From: a virus
Virus record (IMG/VR): IMGVR_UViG_3300021373_003021
Location: 1-25,480 of that record
Direction: 5' to 3' (one strand)
DNA length: 25,480 bases
A model generated the notes under the pieces. That model saw only the letters and a program-made list of their open reading frames with translations. It was not told the origin of the DNA and did no database searches. This document shows, one piece after another, positions 1,844-25,480 of the stretch (within the stretch, counting starts at the first letter, position 1; each line of letters starts with the position of its first letter). A program made the position numbers and the translations under genes.

Positions 1844-4800
1844 ATGGCAGTAACTTCTGGAATGAAAGTAGGCGGCGGTTCGGCGGGCATAACTTTAGGT
1901 GTAGCTGGATTGGGATCAAAACAGCCGGATCCTGTTTCCGCATCCCAAGAGGCGGAGCGGGACAGAGAGGCGGCGGAACGGATCCAAGAGGAGGCAGCCG
2001 TAGCCGTAGACGAACTAGGCTTTACTTTTAACCCGCTTGTTTTTGAAAGTTCTGACGAGTTCGAAGCTACTCTTCGATCCTTAAATGCTGAAACACCGAG
2101 CCGGGAAAGTCGAGATAAGCTAGCTCGATATGTCGCCAGTTTTATAGCCGAGCAAAACGCGGATATTTTCGAAGACTTGGGTTATGACACCGAAGACTTT
2201 TACGATTCTTTAATGCGCGGAGACAGCTTGTTACGCGGTAGAATACCCGGTTTTGATCAGCCTACTGGGGCTGATCAAATAGTCAGAAACCTAATTACCG
2301 ACAGTGAGGGTAATCCTCTGCCGGAGGCAACTATTGCGGGAACAGCTTTTAGGTATGCACCTCAAGCAATTGCCGCCCGTCAAGCAATGGTTTCTACCTT
2401 CCCCCGAATATACGGTTCGCTACAGGGAGCGGGACCTGTTAAAAGAACAGTAGCTGCCGGTTTGGGTTCTTTGGCTGCGGGAACTGGTGCAGCTCTTTTA
2501 ACTGACGCGGCTGTATCACAAGCTTTTGGGCCAGAGGCACCTGTATTGCCTACCATGACATCTGCCGTGAAGAGAAATATCGGTCAGACTGCGGTAGATG
2601 CGATTATGGGTCTTTCTTTGTTAAGAGAATTACCCACAGAGAAAACATCTGTCATGGCATCAGCGATACCACGACTTTTGTTTCCAGACCGACCGCAAGA
2701 TTTTGTAGGACCTGACCAACCTACAGGCGCAAAACCTTTTATGCAACGGGGTCTTTCCGGTTTGGAAGGAATGGCTATAGGGGTTGGTCAAAGATACGCT
2801 GCCGCACCGGTAAGAACCATGCTTAGCGAGGTTCCTTCAGAGGCTGGTGTGATAGCCGGGGCGGCCGTTGTACCTTTTTTTGCAAACCCTAATGACGGGT
2901 TAGCTAGGTTAGGGTTTGAGGTTTTAGGTGGTGTGGCGGGAGAAGCCACCACAAGCAGTACCCGTGGCGCTTATAACCTCGGTAACGCGATGGTTAATCA
3001 GATTAAACGGCAGGTTAGTAAAATGGGAGGTGGTGCTAGTTTAAAAGCGGAAGACGCTTTTTTACGAGACTTGTTCACTTCTCTTCGCTTTAATGATGAC
3101 CTAACAGATGAGCAGGTTCGTTTTGCCATAGAAGCTCTAGAAAACCCTCCCCGAGATGCAGCAGGCAACGTCATAGCGTTATCGCCCGCGCAGCTAACAC
3201 AATTACCTACCTTTAGAGATCTTGACAGAACTTTAAGCCAGATTGACGAGACGCGGTTCTTAGAAGAGAAAAATGCGGCGACTTTGCGCTTTCAAGAGTT
3301 CCTAACAAATGAAATACGGGCAACATATCAAAGGAATAATCCAGCACAGCTGGTATACCTGTCTGATCTCCTGTCTATTAAATTCGATGATTCTATTCGA
3401 GATGAATTGGACGCAGGATTAACCCGTGTTCAAGAGGCGGCGGCAACGGTTCGTCGAACTGATACAGAAGACTTAGTTCAGGGCACAACACAACCGGGAA
3501 CAGTTAGGTCTGCGGACCAACTGGGTCAGGCTGTCCTTAACGTTTGGAGCCAGACTTTGGCGGCTAGCCGACGTAGGGAAAGAGCTTTTTACGAAAAAAT
3601 TCCAAGCAACACGCTTATAGATCGTTACTTTAATGCCGACGGAGAGCCTGTAGAATTACCAAACTACATACGGGTTTATGATCGACTTATGGAAGAAGCG
3701 GCTCCTTCCGGATCGGCAACTCAGAGTGAAAGGATGGCTGGTGCACGGTCTGAGTTTGTGGCTCGAATGGGCCGCCCTCTTTCTAATTTTGTGGAACAGA
3801 GCCGGGCTCAGATAACCGGTACGGAGCCAAGTAAGGTGGTTGAAAGTCTTGGCCGACTTAGAGAGGCCAATACAAGGGCTAGACGAGCTCTTGTTGGCAC
3901 CGCTTCTGAAGGAATTGTAGAGGACTTTTTAGATCAGAAAAATGCGCAGGGCGTTGCATATAGAGATCTTCCGTTACAGGAGCGGGTAGACTTGTTAAAC
4001 GCCGAGGCTGATAGATTGAGGCAAATCCTTGGTCCGGGAAATAGACAGATGCGGATTTTATCGGCACAAGCCTATGAGGCTATGGCAAATTTATTAACCG
4101 CTCAAAACCGAGCGGCTTTAATTCCAACAACTCGGACGGGTGAACCACCCTCTTTTCCCACAGTAGGGGAATTGGTGAGTATGCGTTCTGCCGCTTTAAA
4201 TAAAGCAGTTGCGTTAATGGACGGGGCTAACCCGGATAGAGCTCAAGCTCGTCTCTTTTTTAAGATGGTCAGTGCGTTTGACGACGACATTGATAACATG
4301 ACTGAGTTTGCGGAAGACCTTCCTTTAGATGTCAGAACCCCACTGGCCACCGCCAGAGCTTACAGTCGGTCCCTCAACGAGATCTTTACACGCAGCACTT
4401 TGGGTTTACAGATAAACCCAACGAGACATGGCGTACCCACTATTTTCCCCGAAGAAATACCCTACGTTTTTAATCGTGGTGCAAACGAGTTTTTAAATGC
4501 TCGTACTGCGGAAGAGTTTGCAACGCTAAAAAGATACATAGACGAAAATGAGTTACTGGATCCCCGGTTTAGGGGTTCAATAGAAAATCTAGAAAACCCA
4601 GAAAGTCTTTCTGAAGAATTAATTAGATTTGCCGCAGACCAAAATCTTTATAGAATAAATCCAAACACAAATGAGCTTGAGTTTGACACTGCGTCATACA
4701 CTCGGTTTTTAGAAGAAAATAGCGTGGTTATTGACTTTCTAGAGGGTATAGGAAGAAACGTACGGGAGGACTTGGAAAACCCGTATCGTTTTGAGGTCCT

Positions 4801-6190
4801 AAGACTTACGTATGAAAGGCAAGCGGAACTAGACCGGAAAAACGCTTATTCAAAAAACAGTCTGTTAAGCTTTATTACACCGGAACGGGCTGATCTCGTT
4901 TCAGACGGTCCTACCCCGGGCGTAGTACCTAGAGAAGGTACACAAGATCCAACATCTATCATCACCGAATGGATAGACAACCCACAGACAACTTTTGCCA
5001 ATTTAAACAGAACACTGAGCGATATAAACAGCGCCCCGCTTCTTAATGAAATAACAGACGAGGATCGTGTTGTAGATTCTCCCGAAGAGATCATATCGAG
5101 AATTAAAAGCTCGATAGAGGGTCCTACACGAACCGCAAGAGGCCCTGTTTTTGGAAGTGCAAGCTCACGGGAAGACAATTTAATTCCTAGCACACCCGAG
5201 GGTGATCCCGCGCCAGAAGGAACTTATCTATCTAGGTCGGATGCTATTGCTCGCAGAAGGGCCTCAGCCGTTGGAGGTCTTAAAACAGCCATTATTGAAG
5301 ATGCACTGCGTTTTGGGAACATTGAGGGTTCAAACCCAAGCTTTCTAAAAATGCATCAAAGGCTTTTTCAACCTCGTCCGGGGATGAGCGGTCTTAGTAT
5401 GGCAGACTGGATGCTAGAAAACGACCTCTGGACGGCGGACATAAAATCAAGCTTTGAGCAAAGTCTCTCAGAAGCGGTTAGACTTGAGCGAAATGTTAGA
5501 GACGGAATACCTTTTAACCTTGATGAAGCAGACGCTACTTATTTTGCTTCGGTTATAGCTTCCTTAGCTGGCTCTTCTGCTGCGGGTAAGATTTACGGAG
5601 CTTTGGGCGGATCAGCCTCAAGCATTATTGCTCAAAGCCAAGGTGCCCGAGCTGGTAGAGAAGCGCTTGCTCGTCTTCTAGATACTCTTCCAAATGTTAC
5701 TAAAGCTCAGATAGCTATAGAACTCATGAACGATCCTCAGAAACTCGCAGCAGCTATGAGAAGGTTCCAAGAGTTAGGGGAGCCGGGAGTAACAGGCGTT
5801 CCAAAGACTAGATTTTCAGACGATGTAAGAACAACCTTTAACTATATTTTGAATGGGACGGGTGACTATTTAATTTATCGGGGTCTCCAGATGTTAGACG
5901 CCGCCACACCAAGTTCTCCGTCTGTGGTAAGAGAAAGTGCCCGAGAGATTCAAGAACTAACTCGTGAGGATGACGAAGCCGTTGCAGAAAGAGTGCGTAG
6001 TCGAAATCTACCAGCACCAGCACCTGCCCCGCCAGCCGCAGTCCCCGCGCCAACTCCCACGGCCCCCGCGCCACTAGCATCCGTCGATCCGGGGCGTTAC
6101 CAAATGTTGTTTGGGCCAAACGATCCTAATATGGACATCGTTCAACAGCGCTCGGGTCAGCAGGGTGGTATTGGGAGCTTGTTCGGCTAA
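1844..6190 (+). CDS. Very large virion-associated (internal/ejection-type) protein
   Basis: This 1448-residue protein starts at an ATG preceded by AAGG about ten bases upstream. The N-terminus is Gly-rich and is followed by a charged helical stretch. Ala/Gly-rich hydrophobic segments occur around residues 200-230 and 325-350 and could be membrane-interacting. The bulk is long, helical and charged. A Pro/Ala linker lies at about residues 1388-1412, followed by a short tail with RYQMLFGPNDPNMD and a Gly-rich end (GGIGSLFG). I recall similar Pro-linker plus LFGPNDP-like tails in large virion proteins of marine phages, but cannot verify this here. No lysozyme, peptidase or nucleotide-binding motif was found. 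Its length, and its place between two other structural-type genes, fit an internal virion or ejected protein; that role is inference. Confidence 0.75.
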   Translation: MAVTSGMKVGGGSAGITLGVAGLGSKQPDPVSASQEAERDREAAERIQEEAAVAVDELGFTFNPLVFESSDEFEATLRSLNAETPSRESRDKLARYVASFIAEQNADIFEDLGYDTEDFYDSLMRGDSLLRGRIPGFDQPTGADQIVRNLITDSEGNPLPEATIAGTAFRYAPQAIAARQAMVSTFPRIYGSLQGAGPVKRTVAAGLGSLAAGTGAALLTDAAVSQAFGPEAPVLPTMTSAVKRNIGQTAVDAIMGLSLLRELPTEKTSVMASAIPRLLFPDRPQDFVGPDQPTGAKPFMQRGLSGLEGMAIGVGQRYAAAPVRTMLSEVPSEAGVIAGAAVVPFFANPNDGLARLGFEVLGGVAGEATTSSTRGAYNLGNAMVNQIKRQVSKMGGGASLKAEDAFLRDLFTSLRFNDDLTDEQVRFAIEALENPPRDAAGNVIALSPAQLTQLPTFRDLDRTLSQIDETRFLEEKNAATLRFQEFLTNEIRATYQRNNPAQLVYLSDLLSIKFDDSIRDELDAGLTRVQEAAATVRRTDTEDLVQGTTQPGTVRSADQLGQAVLNVWSQTLAASRRRERAFYEKIPSNTLIDRYFNADGEPVELPNYIRVYDRLMEEAAPSGSATQSERMAGARSEFVARMGRPLSNFVEQSRAQITGTEPSKVVESLGRLREANTRARRALVGTASEGIVEDFLDQKNAQGVAYRDLPLQERVDLLNAEADRLRQILGPGNRQMRILSAQAYEAMANLLTAQNRAALIPTTRTGEPPSFPTVGELVSMRSAALNKAVALMDGANPDRAQARLFFKMVSAFDDDIDNMTEFAEDLPLDVRTPLATARAYSRSLNEIFTRSTLGLQINPTRHGVPTIFPEEIPYVFNRGANEFLNARTAEEFATLKRYIDENELLDPRFRGSIENLENPESLSEELIRFAADQNLYRINPNTNELEFDTASYTRFLEENSVVIDFLEGIGRNVREDLENPYRFEVLRLTYERQAELDRKNAYSKNSLLSFITPERADLVSDGPTPGVVPREGTQDPTSIITEWIDNPQTTFANLNRTLSDINSAPLLNEITDEDRVVDSPEEIISRIKSSIEGPTRTARGPVFGSASSREDNLIPSTPEGDPAPEGTYLSRSDAIARRRASAVGGLKTAIIEDALRFGNIEGSNPSFLKMHQRLFQPRPGMSGLSMADWMLENDLWTADIKSSFEQSLSEAVRLERNVRDGIPFNLDEADATYFASVIASLAGSSAAGKIYGALGGSASSIIAQSQGARAGREALARLLDTLPNVTKAQIAIELMNDPQKLAAAMRRFQELGEPGVTGVPKTRFSDDVRTTFNYILNGTGDYLIYRGLQMLDAATPSSPSVVRESAREIQELTREDDEAVAERVRSRNLPAPAPAPPAAVPAPTPTAPAPLASVDPGRYQMLFGPNDPNMDIVQQRSGQQGGIGSLFG

Positions 6191-10259: not shown

Positions 10260-10269
10260 GTTAACTTTT

Positions 10270-10297
10270 GGTGGGGGGAAACCCCCACCATTTTTTT
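10270..10297 (+). terminator. Intrinsic terminator fused to the primase ribosome site
   Basis: An 8-bp stem GGTGGGGG/CCCCCACC closes a GAAA tetraloop and is followed by A and seven T. GGAGG starts at the very next base (10298) and serves the ATG at 10308. No promoter is evident between the hairpin and the gene, so it should reduce transcription from the SSB-like gene into the primase. Confidence 0.8.
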
Positions 10298-10307
10298 GGA
10301 GGATCAA

Positions 10308-11840
10308 ATGTCAGTAAAAAAGTTTATGTCTATCTTCGATGGCCTGCAGCAGGCTTACGGATACTTCCGGATAGACAAAGAAAGCTCGTCCGGCAAAAGC
10401 GTTGGTAAGGCGGGCATACTGCGCGAACCACGGACCAAGGACCTGTGGGAACGGCACCTGTCCGGCACCGGCAACGGGTTAGGTATCATCCCCATCAACG
10501 AGGACAACTCTTGTAAGTGGGGTTGTATTGATATCGACCAGTACCCCTTGGACCACACAGCGCTGATAGATAAGATACGGAAGCTCAAGCTTCCTTTAGT
10601 TGTCTGTAGGTCGAAGTCCGGTGGCGCTCACTGCTTCCTGTTTTCCAAGGATTGGGTAGACGCAAAAGATTTCCAGAAGGCGCTCAAGTGCATGGCGTCA
10701 GCTCTGGGTTATGGGGAAAGTGAGATCTTTCCTAAACAGGTTGTCCTGCACCTTGAACGGGGTGACGTGGGTAACTTCCTGAACCTGCCTTACTACAACG
10801 CAGAAGAAGGGCTTCGTTATGCTTTTCTGGACGACGGAACATCCGCGACACTGGAGGAGTTTTTCGATCTTCACAAAAAGTATACTCAGACAAAAGAGCA
10901 GATAACCAAGCTTCAGGTTGTAGATACCGGCGAAACAAAGGTCTTGGCCGACGGACCACCGTGCTTACAGGTCTTGTGTAAGAACAAGGTTAGCGAAGGT
11001 GGTCGCAACAACGGACTGTTCAACATCGGGGTGTATCTGCGTAAGGCTTTTCCAGACAGCTGGGAGGCCGAGATACTGAACTACAACATGCAGTACATTG
11101 ACCCTCCCCTGCCCCTCGCAGAAGTCAATGCGGTGGCAAAGCAGGTCGAGCGTAAGGATTACGCATACAAGTGTAACGACGCGCCCATAAACTCTCATTG
11201 TAACAAGGAGTTATGCTTTACCCGTAAGTTCGGGGTAGGGACGGGCACACAAGGCGCATCCATTGCGAACTTGCGTAAGTACAACTCGACACCACCCGTC
11301 TGGTTTATGGACGTCAACGGTGAGCCGCTGGAGCTGGACACAGATGCCCTGCTTCACCAGCCTACCTTCCAGAAAGCCTGTATGGAGCAGCTAAACCACA
11401 TGCCACGGTCAGTGGCAAAGGTGCAGTGGGAAGGTCGGATATCTACTCTCATGAATGAGATGAAGCAAAACGAAAGCAGCATCATCGAGGTGGCTCAGGA
11501 CGCTAGTGTCAGCGGTCAGTTTTATGATTATCTGGAAGAGTTTTGCCGTCACCTACAGCAAGCTCAGGATAAGGAAGAGATCCTCCTGCGTAAGCCTTGG
11601 ACTGACGAAGAGGCGGGTAAGACATATTTCCGTCTGAAAGACTTTGAGGGTTTCTTACGCAAGAACAAGTTCAGCGAGTACAAGACCCATAAAATAGCGC
11701 AGCGTTTACGTGATATTAATGGAGAAAGCACTGTTATAAGAATTAAATCACGGAGCGTTCGTGTCTGGGAAATACCCGCGTTCGACAGCTCTGACGTGTC
11801 CATCCGGACGCCACGGTTCGGGACGGAGGCCCCGTTCTAA
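10308..11840 (+). CDS. Archaeo-eukaryotic-type (TOTE-like) DNA primase
   Basis: GGAGG with five bases' spacing selects the ATG at 10308 (510 residues); a TTG 12 bases earlier lies inside the T-tract/SD and is not credible. The catalytic region has WGCIDIDQY (acidic pair D75/D77) and RSKSGGAHCFLF (101-112, with the SxH motif), typical of the AEP fold used in TOTE-type primase-polymerases. Next come a helical segment GGRNNGLFNIGVYLRKAF (about 231-248, PriCT-like) and clustered cysteines C219, C289, C298 and C303, possibly a metal or iron-sulfur site, ending in LCFTRKFGVG. The last 190 residues have no helicase motifs. It would make primers for the polymerase downstream. The family is clear; exact activity is inferred. 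Confidence 0.88.
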   Translation: MSVKKFMSIFDGLQQAYGYFRIDKESSSGKSVGKAGILREPRTKDLWERHLSGTGNGLGIIPINEDNSCKWGCIDIDQYPLDHTALIDKIRKLKLPLVVCRSKSGGAHCFLFSKDWVDAKDFQKALKCMASALGYGESEIFPKQVVLHLERGDVGNFLNLPYYNAEEGLRYAFLDDGTSATLEEFFDLHKKYTQTKEQITKLQVVDTGETKVLADGPPCLQVLCKNKVSEGGRNNGLFNIGVYLRKAFPDSWEAEILNYNMQYIDPPLPLAEVNAVAKQVERKDYAYKCNDAPINSHCNKELCFTRKFGVGTGTQGASIANLRKYNSTPPVWFMDVNGEPLELDTDALLHQPTFQKACMEQLNHMPRSVAKVQWEGRISTLMNEMKQNESSIIEVAQDASVSGQFYDYLEEFCRHLQQAQDKEEILLRKPWTDEEAGKTYFRLKDFEGFLRKNKFSEYKTHKIAQRLRDINGESTVIRIKSRSVRVWEIPAFDSSDVSIRTPRFGTEAPF

Positions 11841-19265: not shown

Positions 19266-19290
19266 TAAATTACTCCTTTAAACTAGAGGA

Positions 19291-19310
19291 GGGGCGACCG
19301 AGGCCGCCCC
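19291..19310 (-). repeat. GC-rich hairpin, copy 1
   Basis: GGGGCG/CGCCCC form a 6-bp stem around eight bases. It lies 11 bases after the stop of the gene at 19322-19507 and before the ribosome site of the next gene. The same sequence recurs at 19572-19591. There is no T-tract on either strand. Confidence 0.7.
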
Positions 19311-19321
19311 TGTGGTGTGAG

Positions 19322-19507
19322 TTAGCAAGCAAGGACGCTTTCAACACAGCCTTTCAGCCTTGCTTTGGTGCAGTAGTCAGCATCTCCGATTTGGTCGGCT
19401 TCATCGTTTGGTGAGGTCACTTGGTAGACAGTCCAGAGCTGGATTGATGGATCGTAGTAATACCTCGCCCATTGGCCCTGACCGTTATGCTGATAATACG
19501 TTGTCAT
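19322..19507 (-). CDS. Small Tyr/Gln-rich unknown protein
   Basis: AGGAG lies seven bases before the ATG at 19507 (61 residues); the earlier in-frame ATG lies before the SD. The product begins MTTYYQHNGQGQWARYYYD, then QLWTVYQV and ends with a helix containing two cysteines (CTKARLKGCVESVLAC). It is the first gene behind the leftward promoter at 19532-19560. The 5' leader and first codons nearly match those of the gene at 20117. Family unknown. Confidence 0.7.
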   Translation of the reverse strand: MTTYYQHNGQGQWARYYYDPSIQLWTVYQVTSPNDEADQIGDADYCTKARLKGCVESVLAC

Positions 19508-19531
19508 GTGTTTTTCTCCTTTCAATAAGTG

Positions 19532-19560
19532 ATACTATCATATGAAGTGCTGCTTGTAAA
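19532..19560 (-). promoter_or_regulatory. Leftward promoter P1 with two AAG-N5-CT elements
   Basis: On the minus strand TTTACA is followed after 17 bases by TAGTAT, with an extended TG motif before the -10 box. One AAG-N5-CTT element (19545-19555) lies in the spacer and touches the -35 box, and another (19527-19538) covers the -10 box. Their starts are 18 bases apart, a typical pattern for repressor sites. Confidence 0.7.
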
Positions 19561-19571
19561 CCAGGAGAGGT

Positions 19572-19591
19572 GGGGCGACCGAGGCCGCCCC
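19572..19591 (-). repeat. GC-rich hairpin, copy 2
   Basis: This hairpin is identical to copy 1 over its full 20 bases and again lies just after a leftward gene (stop at 19599). The matching extends two bases beyond the stem, which suggests a copied module rather than two unrelated terminators. Confidence 0.7.
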
Positions 19592-19598
19592 TGTAATG

Positions 19599-19910
19599 TT
19601 ATCTAAGGTGCCACTTTAGCCACTCGTCAGATTGAAGCTCGGCGACGTGCCGAGCAACCAGATCTTCAACAGGCCGAGTCTGCACATTTGCTCGAAAACC
19701 AATAAAGGGCTGGATCTCTTTAATCGTCAACGCCGGCTGCAACCGGGCCGCTGACATGATAGTAGAGCGCAAGAAAAATTCCGCCAGAGACTGTTCTGTA
19801 ATCTCGGCTTGGCCGAGGTGGTAGCACAGGCTGGCCATCTCATTTAACCGAGCTTCGCCAAGGGCTTCTACTTTACTCGCACACATAGCATCAGTGTTGT
19901 ATGAAAACAT
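19599..19910 (-). CDS. 103-residue unknown protein
   Basis: AGGAG lies nine bases before the ATG. The protein is predicted mostly helical (SKVEALGEARLNEMASLCYHLG, then a helix with SLAEFFLRSTIMSAAR) and ends with DEWLKWHLR. No motif is recognised. It is read divergently from the gene at 20117 and shares with it a 25-base leader as an inverted repeat, so the two are probably controlled together. Confidence 0.75.
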   Translation of the reverse strand: MFSYNTDAMCASKVEALGEARLNEMASLCYHLGQAEITEQSLAEFFLRSTIMSAARLQPALTIKEIQPFIGFRANVQTRPVEDLVARHVAELQSDEWLKWHLR

Positions 19911-19960
19911 TGTCTTTTCTCCTAATTGTCAAACAACTGTCGATCTCTGCCGACTCCTAT

Positions 19961-19988
19961 ACATTAGCATATAAGTGATGCTTATACT
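19961..19988 (-). promoter_or_regulatory. Leftward promoter P3 over a perfect AAG-N5-CTT palindrome
   Basis: The minus-strand -10 is TAATGT with an extended TG motif. A weak -35 (AGTATA) lies 16 bases upstream. The spacer holds ATAAG-TGATG-CTTAT (19971-19985), the most symmetric copy of the element seen in the other promoters. Confidence 0.5.
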
Positions 19989-20036
19989 ACCCCTATTTCG
20001 TCATAGCTGATATGCAAAAATGCATAACTAACCCTG

Positions 20037-20065
20037 TTTACAAGTCCCACTTAATATGCTAGCCT
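20037..20065 (+). promoter_or_regulatory. Rightward promoter P2 with AAG-N5-CTT element
   Basis: TTTACA (20037-20042) is followed after 17 bases by TAGCCT (20060-20065) with an extended TG motif. AAGTCCCACTT (20042-20052) fills the start of the spacer. It faces the gene at 20117 and is built like P1. Confidence 0.65.
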
Positions 20066-20116
20066 GTATAGGTCAGCAAAAAACTGGCAGTTGTTTGAAA
20101 ATTAGGAGAAAAACAC

Positions 20117-20410
20117 ATGACGACTTATGAGTGGGACATCGAATTAGTTGACGAGCATGGGGACATCCTTGCTCATCACCATTCTGATAAATGTCCGGGT
20201 ATTCCAGCCGATGACTATGACGATGAAGGTTTTATGCCGGCACTCGTTTTAGTCCGCGATAGGTGGGACGAAGGCGGGCTGACGGAGCGCTGGTGGGCTT
20301 ACGTCGAGGACGGCAAACTTCCAGAGCGCTTTGCAGACGCCTACGGTAACGAGGGTCCGTCCGTGCCGAAGCGCTTCCATGCCGAGCTTCAGCAATCGCA
20401 AAATAGCTAA
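20117..20410 (+). CDS. Acidic unknown phage protein
   Basis: AGGAG lies nine bases before the ATG. The 97-residue product begins MTTYEWDIELVDEHGDILAH, likely two strands, and contains ADDYDDEGFMPALVLVRDRW, then WWAYVEDGKLPERF. It is acidic and has no recognisable catalytic motif. It is the first gene of the rightward unit behind P2 and pairs with the divergent gene at 19599-19910 through the shared leader. Confidence 0.75.
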   Translation: MTTYEWDIELVDEHGDILAHHHSDKCPGIPADDYDDEGFMPALVLVRDRWDEGGLTERWWAYVEDGKLPERFADAYGNEGPSVPKRFHAELQQSQNS

Positions 20411-20431
20411 CCACCAGCCAAGAGGCCCCTG

Positions 20432-20458
20432 CCCCGACCGGATCATCCGGCGGGGTTT
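20432..20458 (+). terminator. Hairpin before the GcrA-like gene
   Basis: CCCCG-A-CCGG / CCGG-CGGGG form a 9-bp stem with one bulged A around ATCAT, followed by TTT only. It sits between the upstream stop and the TAGGAG ribosome site, the same placement as the other hairpins. The short T-tract makes termination uncertain. Confidence 0.5.
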
Positions 20459-20488
20459 CGGGGTGCCGACATAGGAGAGAAAAACCGC

Positions 20489-20752
20489 ATGAAAATCTAC
20501 ACCCCAGAACAAGAAGAACTAATCCTAAAAATGGTCGCCGAAGGCAGATCAAATACTGAAATCGGTGCCAAACTAGGCGTCTCAAGAAACGCAATCGCAG
20601 GGAAACGCGGACGTATGGGACTGAACAACAGACAAGTCATCGTCGAAGAAGACCTAATCTATGCATCTGAAAGCCTAAAAGAACCGTGGAACCCAGCGCG
20701 TGACCCACGGCCCGCGATCCTCGAACTACTAAACGAAAGCCTAACATCATGA
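20489..20752 (+). CDS. GcrA-like small DNA-binding protein
   Basis: TAGGAG upstream supports the start (87 residues). Residues 4-45 (YTPEQEELILKMVAEGRSNT, then EIGAKLGVSRNAIAGKRGRMGL) follow the GcrA N-terminal pattern W/Y-T-x-E-x...LW-x-EG-xSxxxIAxxLG-xSRNAVxGKxxRLGL, including SRNAIAGK. GcrA is an alphaproteobacterial cell-cycle activator that binds DNA near GANTC sites and contacts sigma-70. The rest (residues 46-87) is short and acidic and does not match the GcrA sigma-binding region. It may redirect or compete with host GcrA, or be a plain phage regulator. The domain resemblance is clear; the role is inferred. Confidence 0.75.
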   Translation: MKIYTPEQEELILKMVAEGRSNTEIGAKLGVSRNAIAGKRGRMGLNNRQVIVEEDLIYASESLKEPWNPARDPRPAILELLNESLTS

Positions 20753-20916
20753 ATTGCTGGCACTGCAAAAATCCGCTGACATGGGGCGGAGATATCGACC
20801 TAGAAGAAGAGTTTTACGAAAATTATTCAATAGAAACAAACCTCTCATGCTCGAATTGTGGGGCGTTCGTGCTGGTTTACCTGCCGCGGACCACGGACCA
20901 CGGGTCCGAAGAGTGA
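20749..20916 (+). CDS. 55-residue zinc-ribbon protein
   Basis: The ATG overlaps the stop of the GcrA-like gene (ATGA). CWHC (3-6) and CSNCG (34-38) give a two-pair zinc ribbon with an acidic insert (DIDLEEEFYENYS). The last codons (LPRTTDHGSEE) are encoded by a 20-base sequence that recurs inverted at 25417-25436, so the C-terminus may have been replaced by a repeat. Confidence 0.7.
   Translation: MNCWHCKNPLTWGGDIDLEEEFYENYSIETNLSCSNCGAFVLVYLPRTTDHGSEE
20884..20903 (+). repeat. 20-base repeat, arm 1
   Basis: This 20-base sequence is the exact reverse complement of 25417-25436. Its core CGGACCACGG, itself present twice in overlap, also occurs at 18801-18810. It lies inside the coding end of the zinc-ribbon gene. 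Confidence 0.8.
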
Positions 20917-21213
20917 GCACTTTCTTTTTGGCCCTATATATAGAAATAGAAATTAAAAAAAAATATTTTTTGTCAAACTACCTGTAATCGGTGTAACCGT
21001 GTAACAATAGGCCTAAAACCCTTATACGACGGGGGTTTTGGCCGCTACGCCGTTGTTACACTAGGCAATCAGAGGTGTGAACAGATAGATAAATCGCGTT
21101 TTTGCCTTAAGGGGCCTGAAATTTTATTTTATTTTTTTTTAAATTTTGAATTTACTATATAGGGCAGGATGGTAAAAAGAACCTACTCAATATAATTAAC
21201 TAGGTTTTGTTTG
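20917..21213. other. AT-rich non-coding region with nested inverted repeats
   Basis: The 297-base gap has no credible gene. It holds: an A6-TA-T6 palindrome (20958-20971); two direct GTGTAAC copies (20991-20997 and 20999-21005) with an inverted copy (21053-21061); a nested stem GTGTAACAA, GGCC(T)AAAACCC and their complements (20999-21061); long A/T runs at 21121-21157; and TATAAT at 21191-21196 before the terminase gene. Direct repeats beside AT-rich DNA would suit a replication origin or a complex control region. Neither is proven. Confidence 0.6.
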
Positions 21214-21828
21214 ATGACTGATACACCTAAAAAACGGGGCCGCCCAAAGGTTCAAAAAGACAGCACTTTGACCCGCCGGCAGGAATTGTTTGTGAAAGAG
21301 CTGGTTTCGAAAGATGGTCAAATTACCATGCGCGAAGCGGCAATCAATGCGGGCTATCCGGCAAGCAGCGCACATACTCGGGCTTACGAGCTGACTAATC
21401 CTAAAATATCGCCTCACGTTGTCTCGGCAATTAGGGCTTATCGTGAAGAACTAGATGAAAAGTATGGGTTAAATTATCAACGCCACCTACGAGATCTTCA
21501 GATCATTCGTGATGCTGCTTTAGAAAACGGTGCTTTCTCGGCGGCGGTCCAAGCAGAATACCGACGGGGTCAGGCACAAGGTGACATCTATGTCTCCAAA
21601 TCTGAGATCCGAACGGGGTCTATCGACAGCATGTCGAAGGAAGATGTGCTGAAAGCGCTAAATGAGGTTAGGTCCAGCTATGAGCCGATCACAATCGACG
21701 CGACGTTTACCGACGATTCGCAAAAAAACACTTCCGGAAACCGTACAAAAGCGCGAAGCCGACTTTTATCGACAGATGAAGGATGGGATAACGAAGCTCC
21801 CGCGGAAGGTAATCCTGACTCGAATTGA
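21214..21828 (+). CDS. terS: Terminase small subunit
   Basis: I choose the ATG at 21214 (204 residues), with AGG nine bases upstream; a TTG codon sits just before it. The N-terminus is basic (PKKRGRPKVQK). Residues 18-75 (LTRRQELFVKELVSKDGQIT, then MREAAINAGYPASSAHTRAYEL) form the HTH typical of Terminase_2-type small subunits, which recognise phage DNA at the start of packaging. The central helices (about 80-130) would form the oligomer. The C-terminal part is polar and flexible. The large subunit is not in this window, which is unusual because the two are often adjacent. Confidence 0.85.
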   Translation: MTDTPKKRGRPKVQKDSTLTRRQELFVKELVSKDGQITMREAAINAGYPASSAHTRAYELTNPKISPHVVSAIRAYREELDEKYGLNYQRHLRDLQIIRDAALENGAFSAAVQAEYRRGQAQGDIYVSKSEIRTGSIDSMSKEDVLKALNEVRSSYEPITIDATFTDDSQKNTSGNRTKARSRLLSTDEGWDNEAPAEGNPDSN

Positions 21829-22588: not shown

Positions 22589-22725
22589 TGTTTTTTATCA
22601 TACAAAAGATTGTAGAGTTATGTATCGGACCGGAACAAGCCGAATTTAACCGCCGACAGGCTCAAAAAAACAGGCAAATTGCGAAAAACTTAAAGAGGGT
22701 AAATACCAAAAATGTCAGAAGATAA
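22588..22725 (+). CDS. 45-residue basic protein (GTG start), tentative
   Basis: A GTG sharing the last base of the previous stop (TAGTG), with GAGG about ten bases upstream, opens a frame that overlaps the next gene by 14 bases. The product has a hydrophobic N-terminus (VFFIIQKIVELCIG) and a strongly basic Arg/Asn/Gln-rich tail (FNRRQAQKNRQIAKNLKR). The overlaps and ribosome site favour translation; size and lack of homology knowledge keep it tentative. Confidence 0.45.
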   Translation: MFFIIQKIVELCIGPEQAEFNRRQAQKNRQIAKNLKRVNTKNVRR

Positions 22726-22906
22726 AATGGATTACACGGAGGCCTTGGAAGTTTTGGCTCAGTTAGTGCGCGATCACGGAACAGGCAAGCATGACAACGC
22801 TATTCGGTTAATTGCACAAAATACGATTCGGCTTGAGGCGAAGGCGGCTATTTTGACAAGTCAACTTAACCGCCGACGTGAACAGTTGAGATCCTTTGCC
22901 AGTTGA
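22712..22906 (+). CDS. 64-residue helical unknown protein
   Basis: AGAGGG lies twelve bases before the ATG. The product is almost entirely helical: DYTEALEVLAQLVRDHG, NAIRLIAQNTIRLEAKAAI and SQLNRRREQLRSF. The last part could form a coiled coil. The family is unknown. Its TGA stop lies within the TTGACA box of the first promoter cassette, so it is the last gene read before the cassette array. Confidence 0.7.
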   Translation: MSEDKMDYTEALEVLAQLVRDHGTGKHDNAIRLIAQNTIRLEAKAAILTSQLNRRREQLRSFAS

Positions 22907-22930
22907 CACGATAAAGTGATACTATATAAA
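22903..22930 (+). promoter_or_regulatory. Cassette A promoter
   Basis: TTGACA (22903-22908, covering the upstream TGA stop), 16 bases, TATAAA (22925-22930). The spacer carries AAGTGATACTAT (22914-22925). The hairpin begins exactly five bases after the -10 box. Confidence 0.75.
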
Positions 22931-22935
22931 TAGAG

Positions 22936-22961
22936 CCGGCGACAAGATCGCCGGTTTTTTT
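22936..22961 (+). terminator. Cassette A hairpin
   Basis: CCGGCGA/TCGCCGG with loop CAAGA and seven T. GGAG follows two bases later and serves the ATG at 22977. The predicted transcription start falls in the first bases of the stem. Confidence 0.85.
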
Positions 22962-22976
22962 ATGGAGACGAAAGCA

Positions 22977-23618
22977 ATGAGCCCAGCTTTAGAAAGCAAC
23001 CCAAAAATGTCCACACATCTTCGCGGACATTTTCGTGTAGCGGATCTCCGCGGAGCGGATCTTAGCGGAGCGGATTTTAGCGGATCATATCTTCGCGGAG
23101 CATATCTTAGCGGAGCTGATCTTAGCGGAGCGGATTTTAGAAGAGCATATTTTCGTGGAGCTGATCTTCGTGGAGCTGATCTTCGTGGAGCTGATCTTCG
23201 TGGCGCGAGTCTTTGCGGAGCGGATCTGCAAAAATCAGATCTTCGTGGCGCGGATCTCAGCGGAGCTGATCTTTCAACGTCAAATCTTCGCGGAGCTGAT
23301 CTTCGTGGTGCAAATATTTTTACAGCGGACTTCAGCCGAGCTGTTATTTATAATGCAGCGTTTACCAATCTGATCGTAAAACAAGGCCCGATTCGATCCG
23401 ATGGCTGTCAGTATATTTTGTATACCTCGGCTTTGGGCGGCTGCGTCATTAAAACCGGTCGAGAAACGTGGTGGTCTTGCGAGGAAGCCGACGCTTTCGA
23501 AAAGGCCCGACACCATTCTCGGATTAATGCCAAAAAATATGCAGCTGAAGCTTTGCGAATTATCGATTTTTTAAAAAGTGAATTTGAGCTTATATGGCCA
23601 GACTATTTCTATGCTTGA
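22977..23618 (+). CDS. Pentapeptide-repeat protein
   Basis: GGAG nine bases upstream selects this ATG (213 residues) over the ATG at 22962. From about residue 22 to 130 the protein is built of some 22 A(D/N)LxG-type pentapeptides (ADLRG, ADLSG, ADFSG), a right-handed beta-helix fold. Related proteins (Qnr, MfpA) mimic DNA and act on gyrase. A distinct C-terminal part (131-213) contains GPIRSDGCQYILYT, WWSCEEADAF and a helical end with ALRIIDFLKSEFEL. The repeat is nearly perfect at DNA level in places (15-base units), suggesting recent expansion. It is a stand-alone unit of cassette A; target unknown. Confidence 0.9.
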   Translation: MSPALESNPKMSTHLRGHFRVADLRGADLSGADFSGSYLRGAYLSGADLSGADFRRAYFRGADLRGADLRGADLRGASLCGADLQKSDLRGADLSGADLSTSNLRGADLRGANIFTADFSRAVIYNAAFTNLIVKQGPIRSDGCQYILYTSALGGCVIKTGRETWWSCEEADAFEKARHHSRINAKKYAAEALRIIDFLKSEFELIWPDYFYA

Positions 23619-23642
23619 CACAATAAAGCAGCACTATACCTT
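23615..23642 (+). promoter_or_regulatory. Cassette B promoter
   Basis: TTGACA (23615-23620, covering the upstream TGA stop), 16 bases, TACCTT (23637-23642). The spacer carries AAGCAGCACTAT (23626-23637). The hairpin again starts five bases later. Confidence 0.7.
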
Positions 23643-23647
23643 AGAAA

Positions 23648-23674
23648 CCGGCGACAAGATCGCCGGTTTTTTTT
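23648..23674 (+). terminator. Cassette B hairpin
   Basis: CCGGCGA/TCGCCGG with loop CAAGA, then eight T and GGAG immediately, serving the ATG at 23685. Confidence 0.85.
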
Positions 23675-23684
23675 GGAGAAAAAA

Positions 23685-24470
23685 ATGACAGCTGAAACGC
23701 AAATATTCTTAACCCAAAAGTCCCGCATTGAAGCCTTGCGAGCGCGAGCCGGCATTGTTTCATTGCTGGCCCGGCCCGAAGCAAACCCTAAACTAGCGAA
23801 GGGTCGCAAGCTCGGCGTCATGTCAGCGCCTTTGCACCTAGCACCGGCCGACTTGTCAGGTTACGAAGTATGCGCCAAGCGCACTGAAGGATGCTCAGAG
23901 GCTTGCGTTCACTTTGCCGGCAATCCGGCCCATATGTCCGGCAAGACACGCGCAAGGATTGCACGGACTAAACTATATTTTGAAGATCGGGCTTTCTTCA
24001 TGTCTGCTTTGATCGACGAAATCGCGGCGCTGGAAAGAAAGGCACAACGCGCCGGCATGGTCTGCGGGGTTCGCCTTAACGCCACGTCGGACATCCCGTT
24101 TGAACGCGTCAAGATAAAGCATCTCGGCGAGACTTATTCAAACATTATGCAGCTCTTTCCAAAAGTTCAGTTTTACGATTACACCAAACGCCCGAACCGT
24201 CGCAACCTGCCGCCCAACTATCACCTTACGTTCAGTTTAGCCGAGGATAATGACGCCGACGCTCTGCAAGCGCTTAAAAACTCTATCAATGTCGCGGCTG
24301 TCTTCCGCACGAAGCGCGGACATGCGCTGCCAAAAGTGTTTTTGGATCGCCCCGTAATCGACGGCGACTTGCACGATTACCGGCCCTTTGATGCATCCGG
24401 CGTTATCGTTGGACTGCGCGCTAAAGGCCGAGCCTTGCACGATCGATCGGGCTTCGTTCGGGCCGCTTGA
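23685..24470 (+). CDS. Phage Gp88-like protein (DUF7227 type)
   Basis: GGAG with six bases' spacing selects the ATG at 23685 (261 residues). Cys-containing CAKRTEGCSEACVHFAG (about 61-77), then KTRARIARTKLYFEDRAFFM, VRLNATSDIPFE, LFPKVQFYDYTKRPNRR, NYHLTFSLAEDND and PVIDGDLHDYRPFD follow the order I know for phage Gp88-type proteins. The three cysteines near residues 61-73 suggest a metal site. Biochemical function is not established. It is the second stand-alone unit of the cassette array and the largest of the last four. Confidence 0.85.
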   Translation: MTAETQIFLTQKSRIEALRARAGIVSLLARPEANPKLAKGRKLGVMSAPLHLAPADLSGYEVCAKRTEGCSEACVHFAGNPAHMSGKTRARIARTKLYFEDRAFFMSALIDEIAALERKAQRAGMVCGVRLNATSDIPFERVKIKHLGETYSNIMQLFPKVQFYDYTKRPNRRNLPPNYHLTFSLAEDNDADALQALKNSINVAAVFRTKRGHALPKVFLDRPVIDGDLHDYRPFDASGVIVGLRAKGRALHDRSGFVRAA

Positions 24471-24494
24471 CATAATAAAGCGATACTGTATCTT
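24467..24494 (+). promoter_or_regulatory. Cassette C promoter
   Basis: TTGACA (24467-24472, covering the upstream TGA stop), 16 bases, TATCTT (24489-24494). The spacer carries AAGCGATACTGT (24478-24489). Confidence 0.7.
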
Positions 24495-24499
24495 ACAAG

Positions 24500-24526
24500 C
24501 CGGCGACACGATCGCCGGTTTTTTTT
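24500..24526 (+). terminator. Cassette C hairpin
   Basis: CCGGCGA/TCGCCGG with loop CACGA, then eight T and GGAG, serving the ATG at 24541. It begins five bases after the -10 box. Confidence 0.85.
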
Positions 24527-24540
24527 GGAGATTATAAAAC

Positions 24541-24774
24541 ATGACCGTTGAAACAAAAAAATTGTGCAACTTTGATCTTAAGATTATGTTGGTAGAAGGC
24601 TCGACTCAAGTAGAAATCACTGGCGACGACGGGGTGTGGGGCACATGGTCGAGCGTTGTTTTATGCGGACACTTATATAATGGCGACGATCAAGCGGTCG
24701 GCTGTTCGGATCATTTCCGACAAAGTGTTGAGGAGGCGGTCGAGGACTTTGAAAGCCGCCATAGCTTGACATAA
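24541..24774 (+). CDS. 77-residue unknown protein
   Basis: GGAG ten bases upstream supports the start. The product has alternating strands (NFDLKIMLVEGSTQVEITGDD), a Gly/Trp-rich turn (GVWGTWSSVVLCGHLY) and an acidic helix (SVEEAVEDFESRH). No known motif. Its stop is the TAA immediately after TTGACA of cassette D, so here the promoter box encodes the last residues (Leu-Thr). Single-gene unit of cassette C. Confidence 0.75.
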   Translation: MTVETKKLCNFDLKIMLVEGSTQVEITGDDGVWGTWSSVVLCGHLYNGDDQAVGCSDHFRQSVEEAVEDFESRHSLT

Positions 24775-24793
24775 TAAAGCAGCACTATAGCTT
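24766..24793 (+). promoter_or_regulatory. Cassette D promoter
   Basis: TTGACA (24766-24771, coding for the end of the upstream protein), 16 bases, TAGCTT (24788-24793). The spacer carries AAGCAGCACTAT (24777-24788). Confidence 0.7.
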
Positions 24794-24798
24794 ATAAG

Positions 24799-24824
24799 CC
24801 GGCGACACGATCGCCGGTTTTTTT
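24799..24824 (+). terminator. Cassette D hairpin
   Basis: CCGGCGA/TCGCCGG with loop CACGA, then seven T and GGAGG, serving the ATG at 24837. It begins five bases after the -10 box. Confidence 0.85.
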
Positions 24825-24836
24825 GGAGGTTAAAAA

Positions 24837-25034
24837 ATGACGAGTATTAGCAATCCCGACGACATCAAACGTTTTCGACAGCTGACTTTGCTTAAGGGGT
24901 TAAAACTCGAACTGGCCGGCCTGAAACTAGGCCGAGGACCAAGTTGCTATTCGAGAATAAAGCGAGAGTTTGGACTTAGAGGTAATAGGCAAAGCGTCTA
25001 TAACCAGTTTTCTAAAATGATTCAGACCCGTTGA
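24837..25034 (+). CDS. 65-residue conserved-looking phage protein
   Basis: GGAGG seven bases upstream supports the start. The pattern is SNPDDIKRFRQLTLLKGLKL, ELAGLKLGRGPSCYSRIKRE and GNRQSVYNQFSKMI: three helices with a Gly-Arg-Gly turn. This resembles small phage hypothetical proteins that share a GR-SxYS-xxK motif. Function unknown. Its TGA stop lies within TTGACA of cassette E. The basic surface suggests nucleic acid binding, by inference only. Confidence 0.75.
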   Translation: MTSISNPDDIKRFRQLTLLKGLKLELAGLKLGRGPSCYSRIKREFGLRGNRQSVYNQFSKMIQTR

Positions 25035-25058
25035 CATAATAAAGCGATACTATACCTT
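25031..25058 (+). promoter_or_regulatory. Cassette E promoter
   Basis: TTGACA (25031-25036, covering the upstream TGA stop), 16 bases, TACCTT (25053-25058). The spacer carries AAGCGATACTAT (25042-25053). Confidence 0.7.
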
Positions 25059-25063
25059 AACAG

Positions 25064-25091
25064 CCGGCGACCCGATCGCCGGTTTTTTTTT
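25064..25091 (+). terminator. Cassette E hairpin
   Basis: CCGGCGA/TCGCCGG with loop CCCGA, then nine T and GGAGG, serving the ATG at 25104. It begins five bases after the -10 box. Confidence 0.85.
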
Positions 25092-25103
25092 GGAGGTTAA
25101 AAA

Positions 25104-25277
25104 ATGACGAAGACCAAGACCAAGTACAAGAACAACGCCCGCGTCCGTGAACTGGCCCGATCGGCCGCGTTCAAGCTTCAGTTCATGTCAACGATGCTGC
25201 GTTCGGATCGCGTCGAAATGGCCGAAAAGGCCTATCTTGAGGTGCTGGACCTGTTGCGCCAAATCGAGACCGACTAG
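25104..25277 (+). CDS. 57-residue basic helical protein
   Basis: GGAGG seven bases upstream supports the start. The N-terminus is Lys/Thr-rich (TKTKTKYKNNARVRELARS) and is followed by helices AAFKLQFMSTMLRSDRVEMA and EKAYLEVLDLLRQIETD. Codons are more GC-rich than in neighbouring genes, which may indicate a different origin. Family unknown. It is the last unit of the cassette array and is closed by a terminator of the same hairpin family. Confidence 0.7.
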   Translation: MTKTKTKYKNNARVRELARSAAFKLQFMSTMLRSDRVEMAEKAYLEVLDLLRQIETD

Positions 25278-25302
25278 CTCTTAGCCTAAACCAAAACCCG
25301 AA

Positions 25303-25331
25303 GCCGGCGACCACATCGCCGGCTTTTTTTT
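25303..25331 (+). terminator. Final terminator of the cassette array
   Basis: GCCGGCGA/TCGCCGGC with loop CCACA and eight T. It belongs to the same hairpin family, but no TTGACA box precedes it at the usual distance and no gene follows closely. Confidence 0.9.
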
Positions 25332-25480
25332 GTGCGCGGTTTTTGACAGTGAAACATGCGCCGCGCGCCCTGCCGCGCAAGCCCTAAAACTTACCGCGCT
25401 AGGCGCGGTTCCTGATCCGTGGTCCGTGGTCCGCGGTTCTGGGTGCGCGGTTCCTGATGCGCCTTCCCCGGGAATTGGTT
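25332..25480. other. GC-rich repeat-bearing end of the window
   Basis: No gene is seen. A 14-base direct repeat GCGCGGTTCCTGAT occurs at 25403-25416 and 25445-25458. Between the two copies lies the inverted partner (25417-25436) of the 20-base repeat at 20884-20903. Composition is clearly more GC-rich than the preceding genes. Confidence 0.6.
25417..25436 (-). repeat. 20-base repeat, arm 2
   Basis: Exact reverse complement of 20884-20903, in non-coding DNA between two direct repeats. Confidence 0.8.

Follow-up and report, generated by a model that had tools for sequence, protein, structure and literature searches.

What does a hairpin do when it sits exactly where transcription is predicted to start, and why should the same promoter and hairpin stand before one unrelated gene after another? 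These questions are raised by an array of five single-gene units in IMG/VR record IMGVR_UViG_3300021373_003021, a linear, partial phage genome that we analyzed as the complete record of 25,480 bases (the window). The array lies between the terminase small-subunit gene (terS, 21211-21828) and the end of the record. Each unit opens with a conserved cassette behind which the cargo gene differs between related phages, and we think it probable, on balance, that the cassette hairpin has two jobs, ending the upstream transcript and forming the start of the next mRNA, in a locus that acts as a dock for exchangeable cargo.

Five copies of a promoter-hairpin cassette

Each cassette consists of TTGACA, 16 bases, a -10 box, 5 bases, CCGGCGA, a 5-base loop, TCGCCGG, a run of 7 to 9 T, GGAG(G) and ATG. 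The cassettes lie where a preliminary description of this sequence had placed them, with TTGACA at 22903, 23615, 24467, 24766 and 25031 and CCGGCGA at 22936, 23648, 24500, 24799 and 25064. Also correct is the 52-base distance from the first T of TTGACA to the end of the stem in all five window cassettes. The T-runs of cassettes A to E measure 7, 8, 8, 7 and 9 bases, with GGAG(G) and the start codon next. With its 7-bp GC-rich stem, 5-nt loop and T-run, the hairpin fits the form of an intrinsic terminator. TTGACA does lie on or touch the preceding stop codon, supplying TGA itself in A, B, C and E; the stop at D is the TAA of TTGACATAA. Direct inspection shows that TTGACATAATAA supplies stop codons in two frames to the preceding gene, which suits a cassette that has to take any cargo. 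A -10 box was likewise found in every copy, but only A carries TATAAA; B to E have boxes of the form TAnnnT (TACCTT, TATCTT, TAGCTT and TACCTT) with 3-4 of 6 consensus matches.

We scanned the window for a composite of TTGACA, a 6-bp GC-rich stem, a T-run, GGAG and ATG and found five matches on the plus strand and none on the minus strand; the same composite was absent from 300 dinucleotide shuffles of the window, and none of 100 shuffles reached the observed match count for the hairpin alone. These results confirm that the array is real and beyond chance. A sixth hairpin, which had escaped the preliminary description, consists of CCGGCGACCACATCGCCGG followed by C and T8 at 25304-25322. It has no promoter and no gene follows it, so that it closes the array and hairpins outnumber promoters by one.

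The genes between the cassettes are unrelated, as originally described: a pentapeptide-repeat protein (PF00805), a Gp88-family protein (PF17338) and three small proteins without a Pfam match. The features are listed here by position in the window, together with their counterparts in L024 and L035, two related contigs described below.

22712..22906, plus strand: 64-amino-acid gene just before the array; its stop TGA lies inside the TTGACA of cassette A; 91% identical ortholog in the same place in L024
22903..22979, plus strand: cassette A; -10 TATAAA, hairpin 22936-22954, T7, GGAG, ATG 22977; orthologous to the first cassette in L024 and L035
22977..23618, plus strand: cargo 1, pentapeptide-repeat protein (PF00805, 1.7e-41); a further in-frame ATG at 22962
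23615..23687, plus strand: cassette B; -10 TACCTT, hairpin 23648-23666, T8, GGAG, ATG 23685
23685..24470, plus strand: cargo 2, Gp88-family protein of 261 amino acids (PF17338, 7.4e-44; phrog_1617)
24467..24543, plus strand: cassette C; -10 TATCTT, hairpin 24500-24518, T8, GGAG, ATG 24541; homology to L024 ends at 24545
24541..24774, plus strand: cargo 3, 77-amino-acid protein without a Pfam match; absent from L024, which has two other single-gene units instead
24766..24839, plus strand: cassette D; -10 TAGCTT, hairpin 24799-24817, T7, GGAGG, ATG 24837; homology to L024 restarts at 24766
24837..25034, plus strand: cargo 4, 65-amino-acid protein (phrog_19182, 5.8e-5); 78% identical in L024
25031..25106, plus strand: cassette E; -10 TACCTT, hairpin 25064-25082, T9, GGAGG, ATG 25104
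25104..25277, plus strand: cargo 5, 57-amino-acid protein; 93% identical in L024
25301..25331, plus strand: lone closing terminator; the same hairpin with T8 and no promoter or gene start; likewise present in L024, before terL

Conserved cassettes and exchanged cargo in related phages

Pattern scans of 2.9 million viral contigs recovered two relatives with the same cassette. L024 (12.9 kb) has six copies and a lone closing hairpin, followed by terL, and L035 has one copy within 4.5 kb. The search of related phages that the preliminary description had suggested, for the pattern with free cargo, thus added seven cassettes. Across all 12, the 5' arm begins 33 bases downstream of the first T of TTGACA without exception, so this part of the proposed fixed geometry holds generally, but the total of 52 does not: base 52 is the last of the stem in nine cassettes, and a longer loop shifts the end to base 53 in three. 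The stem arms, TTGACA and the T-run are invariant, and so are a TAAAG within the spacer and the CT-TA that precedes the -10 box; CTATA is nearly so, and the loop, the discriminator and the rest of the spacer vary. The -10 box is TATAAA in four of the 12 and TAnnnT in eight, forms that both keep the positions most important to sigma70.

Alignment by BLASTN of the window against L024 gave homologous blocks at 23615-24545 and 24766-25443, the first ending at the start codon of the 77-amino-acid gene and the second opening exactly where cassette D begins. In the gap, the window has that one gene, and L024 has two unrelated genes of 181 and 132 amino acids (the latter DUF7222), each with its own cassette. 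The window and L035 cease to be homologous at 22968, within cassette A, and beyond that point their cargo is wholly different. The same behavior was found in a second lineage (L051, L131 and L133), which shares TerL and TerS and has a different hairpin, GGGACGGGACATTTTCCGTCCC; its cassette of 74 bp shows 96% identity between L051 and L131 and about 95% between L131 and L133, and the genes to either side of it are non-homologous. A lone terminator closes the array in the window, L024 and L051.

Since homology breaks at the modules and the cargo differs, also in an independent lineage, the exchange of cargo behind conserved cassettes is well supported. The claim of a conserved control module with swappable cargo therefore survives the comparison with close relatives, which keep the modules and have exchanged the genes. 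Homologous recombination via the cassettes would be the simplest route, and the gene-by-gene acquisition originally proposed may describe the process. Strong selection on the module had also been suggested; the modules are indeed kept, but selection is not separable from gene conversion among the copies, and either or both may have kept the arms of the 12 cassettes identical.

The remaining matches to the strict and looser promoter scans (L006, L007, L025-L034, L036 and L037) were set aside as mostly chance matches in unrelated contigs. Another unrelated contig, L038, has a single promoter-hairpin-Shine-Dalgarno leader. The near-identical record G001 ends at about window position 20119, before the array, which makes its hairpin-free sequence uninformative.

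Hairpins at predicted transcription starts across the clade

Searches with TerL and TerS gathered 160 loci from a marine phage clade. The nearest isolates to the window phage are 023Pt_psg01, HTVC027P, DSL-LC04 and HTVC023P (55-64% identity in TerL and 48-58% in the family A polymerase), and the order of terS, variable genes and terL fits the HTVC023P-related phage group. Contigs in metagenome-assembled genomes carrying this TerL were binned to Rhodobacteraceae, Rhodospirillales, Maricaulis, Verrucomicrobia and others, although binning is unreliable for viral contigs.

Start-site hairpins are usual in this clade. Of 59 non-redundant promoter leaders, 31 contain a hairpin (53%, against 11% in shuffles), and its 5' arm falls within -3 to +4 of the predicted +1 in 47% of the 59 (2.6% in shuffles). 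These hairpins divide by the presence of a T-run. Those without one, found in other members of the clade (here called cousins), show a separate terminator shortly before the promoter in 27 of 27 cases. Those with a T-run, found in the window, L024, L035, L051, L131, L133 and the borderline L103, have one in a single case out of 16 and none in the other 15. This trade-off suggests that one hairpin took over the terminator's job. The two groups also differ in register: hairpins with a T-run start mostly at -1 to -5 of the predicted +1 and those without mostly at 0 to +3 (Mann-Whitney p=3e-5, a value that overstates independence), so that a transcript begun at a T-run cassette would begin inside the arm.

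The cousins carry clear TATAAT boxes, and their common start hairpin has an invariant GGGCAA hexaloop on a covarying stem. Among 20 sequences, six of the seven base pairs vary at both positions, and none of 500 shuffles reaches the covariation score. Of 164 loci, 41 hold this hairpin, with 69 copies in all, whereas 59 permuted loops averaged 0.4. Examples, mostly shortly before a Shine-Dalgarno site and ATG, are found at L063:4847, L142:5095-5190, L143 near 6300 and 6750, and L175:11569 and 12133. An Rfam search gave no match for this hairpin, which we regard as a candidate new RNA motif of the marine phage clade.

One hairpin with two predicted jobs

The explanation we consider probable as a whole is that single-gene transcription units make up a hyperplastic 'cargo dock' at the terS-terL locus, every unit being preceded by a composite cassette in which a host-sigma70-type promoter is followed by a hairpin at the point of predicted initiation, then by a U-run and a Shine-Dalgarno site. 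To RNA arriving from upstream, the hairpin would present a complete intrinsic terminator and so insulate each unit; in RNA begun in the cassette, it would form the 5' end of the mRNA, with the stem partly or wholly present, and would both protect and present the leader. A single hairpin would in this way end one transcript and cap the next. The start is predicted at or inside the 5' arm, and the cassette's own transcripts may therefore escape termination. The near-identical cassettes of about 70 bp that flank each gene would allow homologous recombination to swap single genes and leave control undisturbed.

Predicted folding energies illustrate how far the outcome would depend on the start. 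The values for read-through RNA lie between -14.8 and -18.3 kcal/mol for 11 cassettes and at -13.7 kcal/mol for the twelfth. RNA starting at base 36 folds at -7.6 to -9.2 kcal/mol, at base 37 at -3.4 to -5.0 kcal/mol and at base 33 at -12.4 to -15.0 kcal/mol, more strongly still with starts further upstream. One-way insulation would thus hold only with a start at bases 35-37. More tentatively, and as a plausible proposal that we would stop short of calling probable, we suggest a start-in-terminator insulator in which +1 lies inside the 5' arm, the 19-bp palindrome stops incoming polymerase and spares its own, the fixed distance between promoter and stem is what does the work, and the units bounded by palindromes make up a modular cargo dock.

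Several observations weigh against the two-job cassette. The -10 box is weak in most cassettes, and an alternative -10 (TATA, positions 21-26), two bases upstream, would move the start to base 33, so that the cassette's own transcript would contain the entire stem, as in an attenuator. Invariant stem arms in the 12 cassettes give no covariation evidence, related sequences are counted in the clade comparisons, and the T-run group amounts essentially to two lineages. Free cargo is also not universal, as the start hairpins of the cousins mostly precede two conserved protein families.

An attenuator is the main rival, although we consider it unlikely. Under it, cassette transcripts would end in the U-run about 25 bases after their start unless an antiterminator or a condition (a phage factor, translation, or the NusG/Rho state) intervened, giving one switch for the whole array. 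The hairpin and its T7-9 do sit between promoter and gene, and a start at base 33 or earlier would put the full stem in the cassette's own RNA. However, the start hairpins of the cousins have no T-run and their terminators lie upstream of the promoter, so that the T-run tracks with ending the upstream transcript, and no antiterminator was identified at this locus. The same cousins bear on a plainer explanation, in which lack of space makes promoter and terminator overlap, the hairpin does no more than end the upstream transcript, and its position at the start serves no purpose. In its favor, phages have compact genomes, the hairpin is of canonical terminator type, and the array is closed by a lone copy; yet cousins with separate terminators, where overlap saves nothing, have start hairpins too, and their stems covary around the invariant GGGCAA loop. 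We rank compact spacing after the attenuator and likewise think it unlikely.

Palindromes separating single-gene cassettes recall integron arrays, and arms invariant in 12 copies would suit site-specific recombination of hairpins as folded DNA, with the promoter incidental. Against this, the promoter, T-run and Shine-Dalgarno site are conserved together with the hairpin, and the exchange among L051, L131 and L133 takes in the whole 74-bp cassette; no tyrosine integrase was found among 20 proteins scanned with Pfam, 17 of them from the window's partial genome. We judge such a mechanism very improbable. Least probable of all is that the TAAAG....ACTATA block is read by a single-subunit phage polymerase, in the manner of SP6 or T7 promoters. 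Cassette D holds CACTATAG, and TAAAG and CTATA are near-invariant, but the boxes of the cousin cassettes are TATAAT. No PF00940 polymerase was found in 11 clade records (seven contigs and the complete HTVC023P, HTVC027P, 023Pt_psg01 and DSL-LC04), in a search in which T7 as positive control matched at 1e-109, and we rejected such promoters on this ground; nor was a single-subunit RNA polymerase present among the open reading frames examined in the window, whose genome is incomplete. Because PF00940 was absent from these clade records and the cousins carry TATAAT boxes, host sigma70-type transcription is favored.

Other elements in the window and in other contigs

A second shuffled spot lies at 19285-20490, with two near-identical hairpins GGGGCGACCGAGGCCGCCCC at 19285 and 19566 and inverted leader copies at 19915-19939/20088-20112 and 19496-19520/20104-20128; a small gene at 19331-19520 lies on the opposite strand in L035. 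The block from terS to the array is flanked by a 23-bp inverted repeat (96%) of CCGCGGACCACGGACCACGGGTC, at 20884-20906 and 25414-25436. Similar repeats, resembling CCGTGGTCC, lie upstream of terL in L024 and L051; could the window's inverted repeat serve in packaging or recombination? Directly before a primase-like gene, 10269-10310 contains the hairpin TGGTGGGGGGAAACCCCCACCA followed by T7, GGAGG and ATG, a cassette-like layout of hairpin, U-run and Shine-Dalgarno site, but its stem differs and it lacks a good -35 box.

The protein of 1448 amino acids encoded at 1844-6190 is 100% identical in IMG/VR contig 3300021425_000113; it has no Pfam match and no tblastn match in 50,697 phage records. 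The unrelated contigs L009-L012, L014 and L016 have in common TTGACAATGTCACATATTACC...CCGGCGACATAGTCGCCGG, a TTGACA-containing element with a fixed length of 65 bases that seems to be a leader or terminator conserved in a different group of phages.

Comparison with known systems

Morons are insertions in phage genomes whose genes have their own promoter and terminator. The units described here are similarly autonomous and single-gene, but the promoters and terminators of morons are unrelated, whereas here every unit draws on one and the same cassette family, with a single hairpin as both terminator and leader. Stem-loops at the 5' end stabilize some mRNAs, as in the ompA leader, which also has a hairpin at the extreme 5' end followed by an A/U-rich Shine-Dalgarno region; the cassette hairpin has a terminator U-run in addition, and the likeness is one of layout.

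The preliminary description had drawn a parallel to the start-associated repeats of some mycobacteriophages. The Cluster K repeats comprise a 13-bp translation-start motif (SAS) and ESAS repeats judged unlikely to form RNA hairpins (Pope 2011, PMC3203893). Both systems place short repeated elements beside the start codons of different gene families, half of the mycobacteriophage elements with inverted repeats, but no promoter is shown for SAS or ESAS. The 13-bp SAS GGGATAGGAGCCC was not found by the start codons here, whose leaders consist of a T-run, GGAG(G) and A-rich sequence. Only gene-start placement is common to both, a weaker parallel than the one below. In the haloarchaeal virus HGTV-1, a TATA-box and inverted-repeat motif stands before many open reading frames and has been likened to promoter early stem-loops (PeSLs) (Sencilo 2013, via PMC3950731). 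That arrangement also joins a promoter-like box to an inverted repeat ahead of many genes; its promoter is archaeal, and the passage describing it reports neither fusion of Shine-Dalgarno site and terminator nor cargo exchange.

The closest likeness is to the PeSLs themselves. These cassettes of T4-like phages were reportedly described by Arbiol in 2010 and Comeau in 2014. By its title, one such paper presents them as composite conserved promoter-terminator motifs that mediate modular shuffling (PMC4503421). In both systems a promoter and stem-loop are repeated between adjacent small variable genes (here five times in the window, six in L024 and once in L035). Shuffling of gene modules has been proposed for PeSLs, and in the present phages cargo is exchanged at the cassettes (at the borders 24545/24766 and 22968, and in L051, L131 and L133). 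PeSLs have an early host-type promoter; the present cassettes have sigma70-like boxes with a mostly weak -10. The phage, however, is not T4-like: its neighbors by TerL, by family A polymerase and by synteny are HTVC023P, HTVC027P, 023Pt_psg01 and DSL-LC04. By comparison with PeSLs as described, the present cassettes set promoter, start-point hairpin, U-run and Shine-Dalgarno site in fixed register before one gene and add a promoterless closing hairpin.

As far as the literature examined shows, the phage group, the fused start/terminator geometry, the promoterless closing hairpin and the clade-wide start-site hairpin are new. The array offers a concrete, testable mechanism for exchanging genes one by one with their control preserved, and suggests a very compact one-way transcription insulator of possible use in genetic engineering. 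It extends the PeSL principle beyond T4-like phages, with a finer anatomy.

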